A model generated the notes under the pieces. It worked only from the letters and a program-made list of their open reading frames with translations. It was not told the DNA's origin and made no database searches. This document shows, piece after piece, positions 24,094-54,515 of a DNA stretch of 64,000 nt. A program made the position numbers and the translations under genes. Position 1 is the stretch's first letter, and the number at the start of each line of letters is the position of its first letter. Where the stretch lies: NCBI GenBank assembly GCA_001873365.1, contig MNYZ01000083.1, positions 1 through 64,000 of the forward strand. The letters run 5' to 3'. The DNA comes from Oscillatoriales cyanobacterium CG2_30_40_61 (GTDB lineage: Bacteria > Cyanobacteriota > Cyanobacteriia > Cyanobacteriales > Microcoleaceae).

Positions 24094-27000
24094 TTAGCTT
24101 TGACTTGATCTTAATAGCTCTAATTTAGGTTTAATTTCAGCATCAAATCCAGCATTTTTTAAGGAATCAATGGTTGCTTGGGCATCCTGTATCCAGAAAT
24201 CACGACCTAAACAAATGCCTTTATGACTGGGCTTAAATTCTCCTTTAACCGTAGCCACAATAGGAATATTGGCTTGTTGTTGATTACCCGAAGATTGTTC
24301 TTTCAACAGTGCATGAAGTTTTTGGAGTTTGGATAAATCATAAACTTCCTCAAGTTTTAGGTGTAAAAGTACCATCAATTCTGATTCTTCTATTGGTAAA
24401 TCTTCTAATAAAAGAGGCGGAATTTTATCAATCCGAGGGAGAGTATCCGCCGACTGTAATTCATCAATAATAAACTGAGTTTTATCTTCCTTTTTTTCAC
24501 TTTTACCCATGATTAAAACTATATCATTTTCCTTCGGAAAATCCTTAATTTTTTGATGAGTTGTTGGGAAAATAATGGCTTCCATTTGTCCGGTTAAGTC
24601 CTCAATTTGTAAAAATGCCATCCGATCACCTTTTTTGGTGGTATGTAGTTTAATAGCGGTAACTACAACAACTACTTTAACTTTAGATTTTTTATCCGTT
24701 AATTCTGATAAAGTCACTCTTTCTTCTACAGAAATCGATCTTAAGATAGATTTTAAAGGATGTTCAGAAACATAAAATCCCAGTAACTCTTTTTCAAATT
24801 GGAGTTTTTCTTGAACTTTAAAATCTTCAAGTTTTGCGGGTTTGGGTGCATCTTCATGGGTATTTTTTGTATTTGTTCCACCCCCTAAAATATCAAAGAT
24901 ACTTTGTTGACCAACGGCTCGATCTTTGGCTTTACTTTGCGCCCAAGAAATTAATTTATCTAAATGATCAATAGCTTGCTTACGGTTGGGGTTAAGCTTA
25001 TCTAAAGCTCCACATTTAATTAACGCGTCTAGGGCGCGACTATTAACCATTTGTAAATTAATGCGATCGCATAAATCGGGAAAACTCTTAAATTCTCCTC
25101 CTTGTTGACGAATTTCTAATAAATGTTCGATCGCACCTTCCCCGACATTTTTAATTGCAGAAAGTCCGAAAATAATACTCTGATCTGAAGGCTTAAAATC
25201 CATTTCCGAAAGGTTTATATCGGGCGGGATCACATTAATTCCCAAGGATTTCTGACAGGATTCAATATATTTTTGAATTTTATCCGTATCCCCACTATTA
25301 GCACTTAATAATGCTGCCATATATTCCACGGGATAATTAGCTTTTAAATAGGCGGTTTCATAGGTAACATAGGCATAGGCCATGGAATGGGATTTATTAA
25401 AACAATTAGAAGCAACTAAACCCTTGCTGAGTAGAAAGTTATGATCTTGTTCTACACCAATATCATAAACGGGTTGGTTCCCTAAAGATTTTCGGCTAAT
25501 AATTTTAACATGAGATTTTGAGTTAATTTGTTGTAATTCTAACCCATTTTCAAAAATTTCATCAATAGGTAACATTTGACCATCAACGGTCATAAATTTA
25601 TGATCTTTTGTTGCCTGAATAACCGAACCATCTTCTAGGCAATATTCAAAAACTTCTTGTTCTCCTCGATTATGCCATTGAGCAATCGGTTGAGTATAGA
25701 CATAACCATGATTATTAACAGTATAAACTGTACATTCTATTTTTTCCTCAACAATTTTACCGATGGGCATTGACCCATATTCAACAGTCAAAATTTCCGT
25801 ATCATAACTCAAACAATATTCAGCGAATTGAAGCATCTGTTCAAACAGTTTTTCAGCGATTTTTTGCCCAACTCCATTTTTAGTTGCCCCATCAATAAAT
25901 GTCTCCCGTTGCTTATTCATTTCTTCGGCTTTTTTCTTTCCCATGGCGCGGCGTAATAAGTCCGCTTGACCTAAAGAATAGCCCGCTAAATCTTGAGCTA
26001 ATCTCATAATTTGTTCCTGAAAACATAAAATTCCGTAGGTTTCTTTTAAAATTGGCTCTAACAGAGGATGGTCATAGCTAATTTGATCCCGTCCATGTTT
26101 GCGATCAATAAATTGGGGAATTAAACCCGCATCTAAGGGCCCCGGACGATACAGTGCTAAAATAGAAGAAATATCATCTAAACAGGAAGGTTCGAGTTTT
26201 TTAACAATATCTATCATCCCAGAAGATTCTAACTGAAAAATACCATCTAAATCCCCTCTTTTCAGTAAATTATAAAGTTTTTCCACATCTTCAGGTAGCT
26301 TTTTCTGGGTTTTATAAGCTTCTTGGGCTTTTCTTTCAATATCAGAGGGAAGTTTTTCCGGATCAATTTTATAGCCATGTATTTCTTCAATATAATTAAC
26401 GGCTTTTTGAATCATGGTTAAATTTTTTAAGCCCAAAAAATCCATTTTTAATAATCCAACTGCCTCTAAATCCTCCATATAATATTGAGTAATGACCGCC
26501 CCATCATTATTGCGTTGCAGGGGAACAATTTCGTCTAAAGACTGTTTAGAAATCACCACACCCGCCGCATGAACTCCGAAGGTTTTGTTAGTACCTTCGA
26601 TGCGAATTGCCATATCTAACCATTGTTTAACTGTAATTGTTCCAACTTCATCCCCAGCATCATTATGAATAGGCACATCTTCATTATCATAAGCTTCTTT
26701 AAATTCCGGCGCGGGACTTTGATCGGAAATCATCACTTTCAAACGAGCGGGTTTTCCCCGTGAAACCGGAATTAATTTAGCCATTTTATCCGAATTTTTA
26801 TAGGAAATTCCTAACACCCGGGCGACATCTTTTAATACCGCTTTTGATGTCATGCGGTTAAAAGTAATAATTTGAGCTACCTTATCCTCTCCATATTTAT
26901 CAGTGACATATTTAATCATTTCATCTCGTCTTTCAATACAGAAATCCGTGTCAATATCAGGCATAGATTTCCGTTCAGGGTTTAAAAATCTTTCAAATAA

Positions 27001-28191
27001 TAAACCATGATAAACCGGATCAATATTGGTAATTTTTAGGGCATAAGCTACTAATGATCCCGCAGCCGAACCCCGTCCCGGCCCGACGGCAATATTGTGA
27101 TCTCTGGCAAATTTAATATAATCCCAAACCACTAAAAAGTAAGTAGAAAACCCCATCTGTTGCATCATTTTTAGTTCATATTCTAAGCGCTCTTTATAGA
27201 CAGGTTTAATCTCGCTTCTAGTCTTAGCATTCATTCTTTCTAGTAACCCTTTCCAGGTAACTTCTTCTAAGTAAGTATCCGCCGTATGATCGGGGGGAAT
27301 GGGATAGTCAGGGATACGAGGTTCTCCCAAAATACCTTTATAGGGTTCAACTTTATTGGCAACTTCTACGGTATTATTAATCGCTTCTTGAATGATCTCA
27401 TTAGGTAGGTGATCAATAAATAATTGCGCCATTTCTTCGGCGGATTTTAAATATTCTGTGCCGCTATAGCGCATCCGTTTTTCTTCACTAATTAATTTTT
27501 GAGTGTTAATACAAAGTAAAGCATCATGGGCTTCCACATCGTTACATGAGATAAAATGGGAATCATTTGTTGCAATAATTTTAATATTTAATTCTTGACT
27601 AATTTTAACAATTTCAACGTTGACCATCCGATCTTCTGGAGAACCATGGTCTTGAATTTCTAAATAAAAATCTTCTCCAAATACCCTTTGATACCATTTC
27701 GCGACTTCCCGCGCCACCTCATAACGTCCTTGTAAAATCGCTTGGGGAATTTCTCCCCCTAAACAAGCACTGGTAACAATTAACCCTTCGTGATATTGTT
27801 CTAATAGTTCTTTATTGATACAGGGACGTGCAAAAATGCCTTTTCCTTGAAACCCTTGGAGGTGTGAAATGGTGGTTAATTTAACTAAGTTTTTATAGCC
27901 TTGGGTGTTTTTAGCTAAGACCACTTGATGATATTTTCTTCGTTTCTCACCCTTCTGATCTTGAATTGTAACATCCCCATTAATCACATACATCTCATTG
28001 CCAATAATGGGTTTTATTCCTTTATTTCGGCAGGTTTTAATTAACTCAATGGCTCCATACATAACACCGTGATCGGTAACAGCGATCGCCGGCATTCCTA
28101 ACTCTAAGGCTCGGTCAATTAATTGGGGTAATTGGGATGCCCCATCCAGTAAACTATAATCACTATGAATATGTAAACCTACAAAAGACAT
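24094..28191 (-). CDS. dnaE: DNA polymerase III alpha subunit, continuous ORF with internal intein
   Basis: PHP domain ([16 protein letters not shown]), catalytic PDIDTDF, C-terminal OB fold ([31 protein letters not shown]). Single 1365-aa ORF spanning both halves that are normally split in cyanobacteria. Confidence 0.97.
25405..25815 (-). other. DnaE mini-intein (137 aa), contiguous version of the cyanobacterial split DnaE intein
   Basis: [137 protein letters not shown], followed by +1 C (CFNKSHS). Contains C1, ATKDH block B, DHNF block F and terminal N. Confidence 0.95.
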
Positions 28192-30098: not shown

Positions 30099-31166
30099 AT
30101 GCTTGAAAATATAGAAATTAATAATTTTAGATGTTTTGAAAGCACTAAAATTTCTGGATTTAAAAAAGTGAATCTAATTGGAGGTAAAAATAACGCTGGA
30201 AAGACAGCTTTTTTAGAAGCTTTACTGTTGCATAACTTTCCCCGGCCTAAAAGCATAATTGAACTTAAGAGAATTAGGAGAGAGTCTTCAGAGATTTCAA
30301 AATCCAGACCCGAACGCACTTGGGATAATTTTTTTTTAGATCAAAAACATCAAGAAAAAATAAAAATTATTGGCAAGTATTCAGAAGATTGGAAAACCGT
30401 AGATATTTATGTTTCTGATACAATTAACTCTGATTTTTTTGAAGATCAAAAAGACATTAAAAAATTGATTGAATTTATTTCTCAAAATGAATCAGTAACA
30501 TCACTTAATATTAAAGTTACTCAAAATCAAGACCATATATCTGAATCTTCGGTAATTGCAAGCTCAAACGGAATAATTTCAGTAAGTGGTTCAGACTCAA
30601 GTGACATACCTATTATTCCATCCGGTTTAAGAATGTCAAACACAGAGTTAGCTGAATCCTATGATAAAGCCCGTCTGGATGAAAAAGATGGTGAAGTTTT
30701 AAAGTTGTTAAAAATTCTTGATTCATCAATTCAAGAGGTAGATAGTTTTTCGATTGGTGAACCTACTTTATATTTAAGGAGCATCAATAAACGTCGCTTA
30801 CCTATTTCATTGTATGGAGATGCTATTATTAGGGCTACAACTATTATCTTAAAATTAATCAATAATAACAATAAAATTTTGTTAATTGATGAAATTGAAA
30901 ATGGCATCCACTATACTAATCAAAGAGAATTTTGGCGAACCTTATTTCGACTATCAAAAGAACTAGATACTCAAATCTTTGCCACAACCCACAGTTTAGA
31001 AATGATTCAATCTTTTGGAGATGTAGGCTTAGAAACAAATGAAGAAATCAGTGCTTATTTTGAACTAGCAAGACATCCTAAAACCAACGACATTATAGGA
31101 ATTAAAAGGGATGTAGAAACCTTAAAATATGATTTAGAACATAAAAAAGGAGTTAGAGGTGAGTAA
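30099..31166 (+). CDS. AAA family (OLD/ABC-type) ATPase
   Basis: Walker A GGKNNAGKTAFLEALLL, Walker B ILLIDEIENGIHY, H-loop IFATTHSLEMIQSF; N-terminal IEINNFRCFES. Confidence 0.92.
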   Translation: MLENIEINNFRCFESTKISGFKKVNLIGGKNNAGKTAFLEALLLHNFPRPKSIIELKRIRRESSEISKSRPERTWDNFFLDQKHQEKIKIIGKYSEDWKTVDIYVSDTINSDFFEDQKDIKKLIEFISQNESVTSLNIKVTQNQDHISESSVIASSNGIISVSGSDSSDIPIIPSGLRMSNTELAESYDKARLDEKDGEVLKLLKILDSSIQEVDSFSIGEPTLYLRSINKRRLPISLYGDAIIRATTIILKLINNNNKILLIDEIENGIHYTNQREFWRTLFRLSKELDTQIFATTHSLEMIQSFGDVGLETNEEISAYFELARHPKTNDIIGIKRDVETLKYDLEHKKGVRGE

Positions 31167-31857
31167 TCTTTTAATTGTAGAAAGTAAAAATGATAAATTT
31201 TTTCTTGAAGCTCTAATTAAGGAACTAAATTATGATATTGAGATCGATGCTCCTATTTGTATTGATGACTATGAATGTTTAGAAGGATTAAGTAAAAAAA
31301 GGCTAGTAGGAGCTTTCAAGTCCCTGTTAGCTGATATTCAAAAAAGACAAATTAGTAAAATTGGAATTGTGATCGATATTGATCAAGACTCTCAGCAAGA
31401 GCGTTTGCAATTTATTAATCAATGTTTACAGCAGGTTTTTACTCTAAATAATGAATTTTCTGATATATCACAATTAATAACTGTTAATATCCCTGGCTAT
31501 GATGCTATTGAAATAGCTTGTTATTTTACCCATGTAGAAGGTAAAGGAGAGTTGGAAACTGTGTTAAAACTTATTAAAACTAAAGAATCTCCTTATGCAG
31601 ATTGTTTAGACAGTTGGAGAAACTGTTTAGAAAATAAGAATAAATTGATTAGTGATAAAGAATATGATAAATTTTGGATTAGTAATTATATTCGATTCGA
31701 TACTTGTTCTAGTTCAGAGAGCAAGCAAGCAGAACGAAAATGCAGCATGAAAAATTTTGAATATATTATGGAAAATAAAAAAGCTATCTGGAATTTTAAT
31801 CACCCTGTTCTCGATGAGATCAAAGAATTTTTGCACCTTTTTGTTGCTGAGAGTTGA
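31159..31857 (+). CDS. TOPRIM-like (DUF3226-like) protein, partner of the upstream ATPase
   Basis: LLIVESKNDKFFLEALI (TOPRIM Glu motif) and IGIVIDIDQD (DxD motif); start overlaps the ATPase stop by 8 bp. Confidence 0.75.
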   Translation: MSNLLIVESKNDKFFLEALIKELNYDIEIDAPICIDDYECLEGLSKKRLVGAFKSLLADIQKRQISKIGIVIDIDQDSQQERLQFINQCLQQVFTLNNEFSDISQLITVNIPGYDAIEIACYFTHVEGKGELETVLKLIKTKESPYADCLDSWRNCLENKNKLISDKEYDKFWISNYIRFDTCSSSESKQAERKCSMKNFEYIMENKKAIWNFNHPVLDEIKEFLHLFVAES

Positions 31858-33943: not shown

Positions 33944-34110
33944 AATAGGACTTACGCATGGTGCCCTAGAAACCGGGTTTTTTAGAAAATATCTGGGTAA
34001 GAACGAAGTATTTTTGTAAAAAAAACCGAGAAACCGGGTTTTTTAGATAATATATGGGTCACACGAAGTATTTTCACAAAAAAACCCGGTTTCTGTGCGT
34101 AAGTCCTATT
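33944..34110. mobile_element. MITE-like element, 167 bp, perfect 15-bp terminal inverted repeats
   Basis: AATAGGACTTACGCA ... TGCGTAAGTCCTATT, with internal AGAAACCGGGTTTTTTAGA repeats. Confidence 0.85.
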
Positions 34111-54380: not shown

Positions 54381-54515
54381 AGAAACCGGGTTTCTGAAAT
54401 CCTATAGATTTTCTATCTAAATCAATGGTAGAAACCCGGTTTCTACAGCAAAGAAACCGGGTTTCTGAAATCCTATAGATTTTCTATCTAAATCAATGGT
54501 AGAAACCCGGTTTCT
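54381..54515. repeat. Two identical 64-bp hairpin units, 71-bp period, in a convergent intergenic region
   Basis: AGAAACCGGGTTTCTGAAATCCTATAGATTTTCTATCTAAATCAATGGTAGAAACCCGGTTTCT at 54381-54444 and 54452-54515. Arms are perfect 15-bp inverted repeats. Confidence 0.95.

Follow-up and report, generated by a model that had tools for sequence, protein, structure and literature searches.

The genome examined here, from a member of Planktothrix, carries two overlapping genes directly flanked by menD and cruP, which raises the question of whether they constitute an anti-phage module and, if so, how this module relates to the systems already described. In the original prediction the pair was read as an OLD/ABC-type ATPase followed by a TOPRIM-like, DUF3226-like protein, and a split-OLD or PARIS-like defence function was proposed. 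The relevant features of the window, that is, of the whole stretch of 64,000 nucleotides analysed, are as follows.

30099..31166, + strand: ATPase gene (AAA_15, ABC/RecF/OLD-type), 355 aa; PF13175, PADLOC AbiLi and PDC-M38A matches, AF2 model
31159..31857, + strand: DUF3226 gene, candidate OLD-type TOPRIM nuclease, 232 aa, GTG start; PF11536, PDC-M38B, conserved residues
31149..31166, + strand: GGAG ribosome-binding motif and 8-bp gene overlap, sequence GGAGTTAGAGGTGAGTAA
30180..30206, + strand: Walker A GGKNNAGKT of the ATPase; G29, N31, N32, G34 and K35 invariant in 51 homologues
30888..30893, + strand: Walker B D264 E265 of the ATPase; invariant in 51 homologues
30984..30992, + strand: TTH switch motif T296-H298 of the ATPase; invariant in 51 homologues
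31180..31194, + strand: putative TOPRIM E8...D12 (ExxxD) of the DUF3226 protein; at least 90% conserved in 41 homologues; position of E400/E404 of Bp OLD (PMC6755086)
31375..31383, + strand: putative TOPRIM DxD (D73, D75) of the DUF3226 protein; invariant; corresponds to D455/D457 of Bp OLD (PMC6755086)
31555..31557, + strand: E133, first helix past the TOPRIM core of the DUF3226 protein; invariant; corresponds by order to the metal-B ligand E508 (PMC6755086)
31669..31671, + strand: K171, C-terminal helical region of the DUF3226 protein; invariant; corresponds by order to the catalytic K562 (PMC6755086)

The existence of this pair of reading frames is confirmed far above chance. The 8-bp overlap (GTGAGTAA, 31159-31166) and the GGAG motif placed 6 nt ahead of the GTG start of the second gene make it probable that the two are coupled in translation. 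Both genes are AT-rich, as had been noted, with GC contents of 0.301 (ATPase) and 0.293 (DUF3226) against 0.349 for menD, 0.394 for cruP and 0.391 for the window, and both are under purifying selection within Planktothrix (dN 0.01-0.09, dS 0.09-0.30). The location of the pair between menD and cruP stands as predicted; the name cruP is carried over from that prediction, and the gene itself returned just a weak match to an FAD-oxidoreductase family (PF01266, 0.0003).

The association of the two genes is strict. At the best 30 cyanobacterial DUF3226 loci the ATPase gene lies immediately upstream of the effector gene in every case, and among 386 cyanobacterial genomes all 61 full-length effectors have an ATPase 8-96 bp away. 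The distance matrices of the two proteins are closely matched (Mantel r=0.92, p=1e-4) and the pair therefore travels as a single unit.

The first protein matches the Pfam families PF13175 (AAA_15; 3.7e-25) and PF13304 (1.1e-13) and, among the PADLOC models, AbiLi over its full length (9.2e-57) and PDC-M38A over residues 1-332 (2.1e-56). In the alignment of 51 homologues, Walker A, Walker B and T296-T297-H298 are invariant, as are R11, P235 and R353. The AF2 model (pLDDT 88.8) retrieved PtuA, GajA, SMC, Rad50 and OLD as its best Foldseek matches and resembles the heads of Rad50 and SMC.

The second protein is a member of DUF3226 (PF11536, 5.1e-28, residues 3-227). Across 41 diverse homologues, many of which are merely 15-20% identical, G69, D73, D75, G130, L132, E133 and K171 never vary, and conservation of V7, E8 and D12 reaches at least 90%, which bears out the TOPRIM-type motifs recognized earlier. 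The catalytic set of class 2 OLD, as defined for Bp OLD, comprises E400, E404, D455, D457, E508 and K562 (PMC6755086), and E8, D12, D73, D75, E133 and K171 match this set in the order E-x3-acid, DxD, Glu, Lys (PMC6755086), the equivalence of E133 and K171 to E508 and K562 being one of order and spacing and not of superposition. Profile comparison with hhalign aligned DUF3226 with the TOPRIM domains of fused OLD proteins on the E and DxD motifs (P=2.9e-5, probability 74%). The proposed split-OLD architecture of an ATPase and a TOPRIM-type nuclease is supported. A sister effector of 200 aa, found beside the same ATPase family, aligns with DUF3226 at 99.7% in hhalign and reaches 22.6 bits against Pfam OLD-like_TOPRIM, slightly below the cut-off of 23.2, and by these matches links DUF3226 with OLD-like TOPRIMs. 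In a 753-aa OLD-like frame (G038:C38), one stretch is matched by both the DUF3226 and the OLD-like_TOPRIM models.

In the AF2 model obtained for the effector (pLDDT 89.7), strands and helices follow a TOPRIM-like order, and E8 and D73 each sit at the end of a strand. Foldseek returned no significant fold match among the PDB and viral models, the top weak match being RecR, which contains a TOPRIM domain, and the PARIS entry 8ux9_A ranking 19th; a search of PDB sequences with the effector profile retrieved no relative. The conserved catalytic set, the profile links and the topology of the model indicate that the DUF3226 protein is very probably a TOPRIM nuclease of the OLD type, and its more general assignment as a divergent TOPRIM nuclease is predicted with high confidence. 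For a Pfam family of unknown function, this provides a functional hypothesis: a two-metal nuclease of the OLD type, for which six residues are named.

The distribution of the pair is patchy and far from universal, extending to 59 of the 386 cyanobacterial genomes with up to several copies per genome. Of ten Planktothrix genomes, six carry it downstream of menD among varying other genes, so that the locus differs between sister strains. In one of those lacking it (G007), the menD-gene-cruP arrangement retains the final codons of the effector (ILNQLKEFLKILADES); the pair was therefore lost there, and this site is ruled out as an empty ancestral one. In another (G002) the pair is missing and no remnant is visible. 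The effector subfamily of the window recurs with 44-60% identity in Tychonema and related genera, Pseudanabaena, Brachyspira and Chitinophagales, whereas other cyanobacterial DUF3226 proteins are mostly 15-20% identical to it; sequence comparison thus reveals horizontal spread of this subfamily across phyla. On the other hand, alaS lies in the neighbourhood of nine of 20 related loci (L196-L207), and one cyanobacterial lineage therefore keeps the pair in place.

Several observations were made on the surroundings of these loci. In Planktothrix (L143-L155), the region after menD holds an opposite-strand gene, a gene of 401 or 452 aa and the pair, followed by cruP or by a YebC-like gene (G001, G004); cruP is located elsewhere in G001, G004, G008 and G009. 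The pair occurs as an isolated insertion between core genes. Related pairs occur by aminoacyl-tRNA synthetase genes at the nine cyanobacterial alaS loci, beside glyQS in Acinetobacter (L194) and about 4 kb from a pheT-like gene in Brachyspira (L021), a proximity that may be due to chance or to common ancestry. In Brachyspira alvinipulli (L023) an apparent methylase gene, recognized by eye, lies immediately upstream of the pair. The source genome also encodes, elsewhere, an RloB-family protein (G000:C54:86034-86555, L180), possibly half of an AbiL-type pair.

Other elements of the window and of its relatives were also recorded. The DnaE intein is split over two genes in most cyanobacteria. The dnaE gene of the window (24094-28191, - strand) is one contiguous frame with a 137-aa DnaE mini-intein (residues 793-929). 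Among the ten Planktothrix genomes, dnaE is fused with the mini-intein in the source genome (G000) and apparently in G008, contiguous without an intein at this site in G002, G004, G006 and G007, and split in G001, G003 and G009. In G005:C333 (L250:601-1620, - strand) the N-terminal and C-terminal halves of the split intein lie side by side, and between them, in another frame, is a LAGLIDADG-like homing endonuclease frame (LLGLIAADG, LGYFDGDG; motifs read by eye); this arrangement may represent a stage between the split and the fused form. G004 (L257:3745-5166) has a second dnaE intein, inserted at RRC|MGKKK (near residue 751), of which shortened forms occur in G001, G002 and G008 (L255, L256, L258). 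Tandem units of 71 bp and 61 bp starting AGAAACCGGGTTT, at 54381-54515 and 33968-34088 of the window, are probably a small interspersed repeat.

The manner in which the pair decays bears on its function. At 14 cyanobacterial loci the ATPase is intact while its effector is either broken or absent, and the reverse occurs at none, with the reservation that some frameshifts may be sequencing errors and that the absent cases may have had another partner. At ten of these loci a full-length ATPase accompanies a broken effector. In P. rubescens PCC 7821 (G001) the effector gene has a nonsense codon at residue 17, in G043 it contains an insertion that carries transposase-like frames, and at two loci of G393 it is disrupted; G114, G169 and G179 have each lost part of it, and the copies of Pseudanabaena SR411 (L024), G052 (L038) and G021 (L046) are damaged. 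The effector is absent beside the ATPase at four loci (G008, G195, G018 and a second locus of G043). Both genes are broken in G293, G241:C27 and G025; in G390 the ATPase frame is open and contains an internal gap. Nowhere in the survey of 386 cyanobacterial genomes did an intact effector stand beside a clearly broken ATPase. If hits scale with gene length, the chance that all ten disruptions of the phylum sample fall on the effector side is about 1e-4. Such one-way decay is consistent with an effector that does harm once its ATPase is missing, and suggests a potentially toxic nuclease restrained by the ATPase; it adds evidence that PDC-M38, a computationally listed candidate, behaves as a toxin with a guarding ATPase.

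Related systems offer a precedent for such an arrangement. AAA/TOPRIM_OLD pairs act as toxin and neutralizer in E. coli (PMC10440598), and in PARIS a phage protein triggers the release of AriB, a two-metal tRNase, from AriA, which otherwise retains it (PMC12409363). Fusobacterium AbiLii is toxic; counting against the analogy, Dy et al. found that co-expressed AbiLi gave no rescue of this toxicity (PMC3985639). By analogy, the ATPase of the window is a probable sensor and neutralizer of the effector. It would probably oligomerize, form a complex in which the effector, a putative two-metal TOPRIM nuclease, is held inactive, and sense infection; a phage trigger acting on the ATPase would release or activate the nuclease, which would cut DNA or tRNA of the host or the phage and halt phage growth, probably by abortive infection. 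A two-gene split-OLD module resembling PARIS and AbiL and fitting PDC-M38, in which the ATPase senses infection and restrains a toxic nuclease, is the reading that we consider reasonably probable. More tentatively, DUF3226 may define a separate, widespread split-OLD immune class with the ABC ATPase as obligatory antitoxin, in which the effector is lost first and ATPase-only remnants mark former defence loci.

The anti-phage role itself is inferred from this kinship, and parts of the genomic context speak against a plain defence function, among them the fixed place of related pairs near alaS; the apparent methylase gene of Brachyspira alvinipulli points the other way. PADLOC families showed no clear defence-island enrichment among the neighbours of 20 loci (130 proteins) relative to 20 control regions (140 proteins), the matches near pair loci and controls being mostly of the kinase type; a CRISPR type III-like locus lay close to one pair, and the control regions contained further candidate systems. 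No phage, plasmid or viral contig was found to carry the pair, save for records that resemble bacterial chromosome: 'Acinetobacter phage MD-2021a' (CAKLQH020000003.1, L194) and a 4.09-Mb 'plasmid' (NZ_CP104448.1, L195) appear to be bacterial chromosomal sequence, and in the Acinetobacter records glyQS and the ast operon adjoin the pair, which points to probable chromosomal DNA.

This lack of enrichment would suit a toxin-antitoxin or addiction pair with no dedicated anti-phage role, in which the ATPase neutralizes the TOPRIM nuclease and the module persists because it is costly to lose, as would the isolated insertion between core genes, the lack of any intact effector without its ATPase and the decay that strikes the effector first in every case. 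A large ABC ATPase is nevertheless an expensive antitoxin, relatives of the same architecture (PARIS and AbiL) act against phages and PADLOC lists the pair as a defence candidate, which leaves this explanation unlikely. An enzyme of DNA repair or chromosome maintenance, a role suggested for Cran1, an OLD protein of archaea (PMC12796447), would agree with the purifying selection on both genes and the stable position near alaS, but is distinctly improbable for a pair that is confined to a minority of cyanobacterial genomes, occurs in up to several copies, decays frequently and belongs to a cross-phylum subfamily. That the pair is a true member of AbiL or PARIS is most improbable: the ATPase matches AbiLi (9e-57) in full and AriA in part (1.8e-25), but the effector matches neither AbiLii nor AriB, and its hhalign comparisons with RloB profiles were weak or not significant (P=0.12 and 0.008).

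The favoured reading of a defence module with a restrained nuclease can thus be set against the known systems. Fused OLD is ruled out, as the ATPase and TOPRIM domains lie on two polypeptides; so is Gabija, with two separate frames, no fused GajA, no GajB helicase and menD and cruP as neighbours, and so is a retron (class 3 OLD), with no room for a reverse transcriptase gene between menD and cruP and no retron RNA family in the window. With OLD of classes 1 and 2 (P2 Old, GajA of Gabija) the pair shares the two domains and the TOPRIM catalytic residues, but those proteins are fused, whereas the pair is made of two polypeptides and has no helicase neighbour. With MADS, compared at the level of Mad3 and Mad4, there is an ATPase match to Mad3 (6e-13) and a weak effector match to Mad4 (0.013), but the pair stands alone. 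PARIS ('class 4' OLD) shares the adjacent ATPase and TOPRIM genes; its AriA, however, has 464 aa against 355 aa, and AriB found no match at E 1, so that the membership suggested by the earlier 'PARIS-like' reading is rejected on the effector. AbiL shares the order of an ATPase followed by a TOPRIM-type effector, but its effector is RloB/AbiLii and not DUF3226, and it too is rejected on the effector, RloB/AbiLii models matching only two of the 41 relatives (best 2.5e-4).

PDC-M38 is, on sequence, the candidate that the pair fits: the second protein matches PDC-M38B (5.3e-13), although the alignment covers no more than positions 1-88 of the 219 in the profile, and all aligned effectors (41) and ATPases (51) match the PDC-M38 models. 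The earlier supposition that the pair might not correspond to a named subtype was wrong in part, because both proteins match PDC-M38. PDC candidates come from guilt-by-embedding and most are without experiments (PMC12988326); our literature search found no paper naming PDC-M38 or DUF3226 and no anti-phage experiment on PDC-M38. The pairing is thus already catalogued as a defence candidate, to which the window, from a bloom-forming cyanobacterium, adds a member and a compact test case of two genes that, by analogy, would work like PARIS and AbiL without being either.
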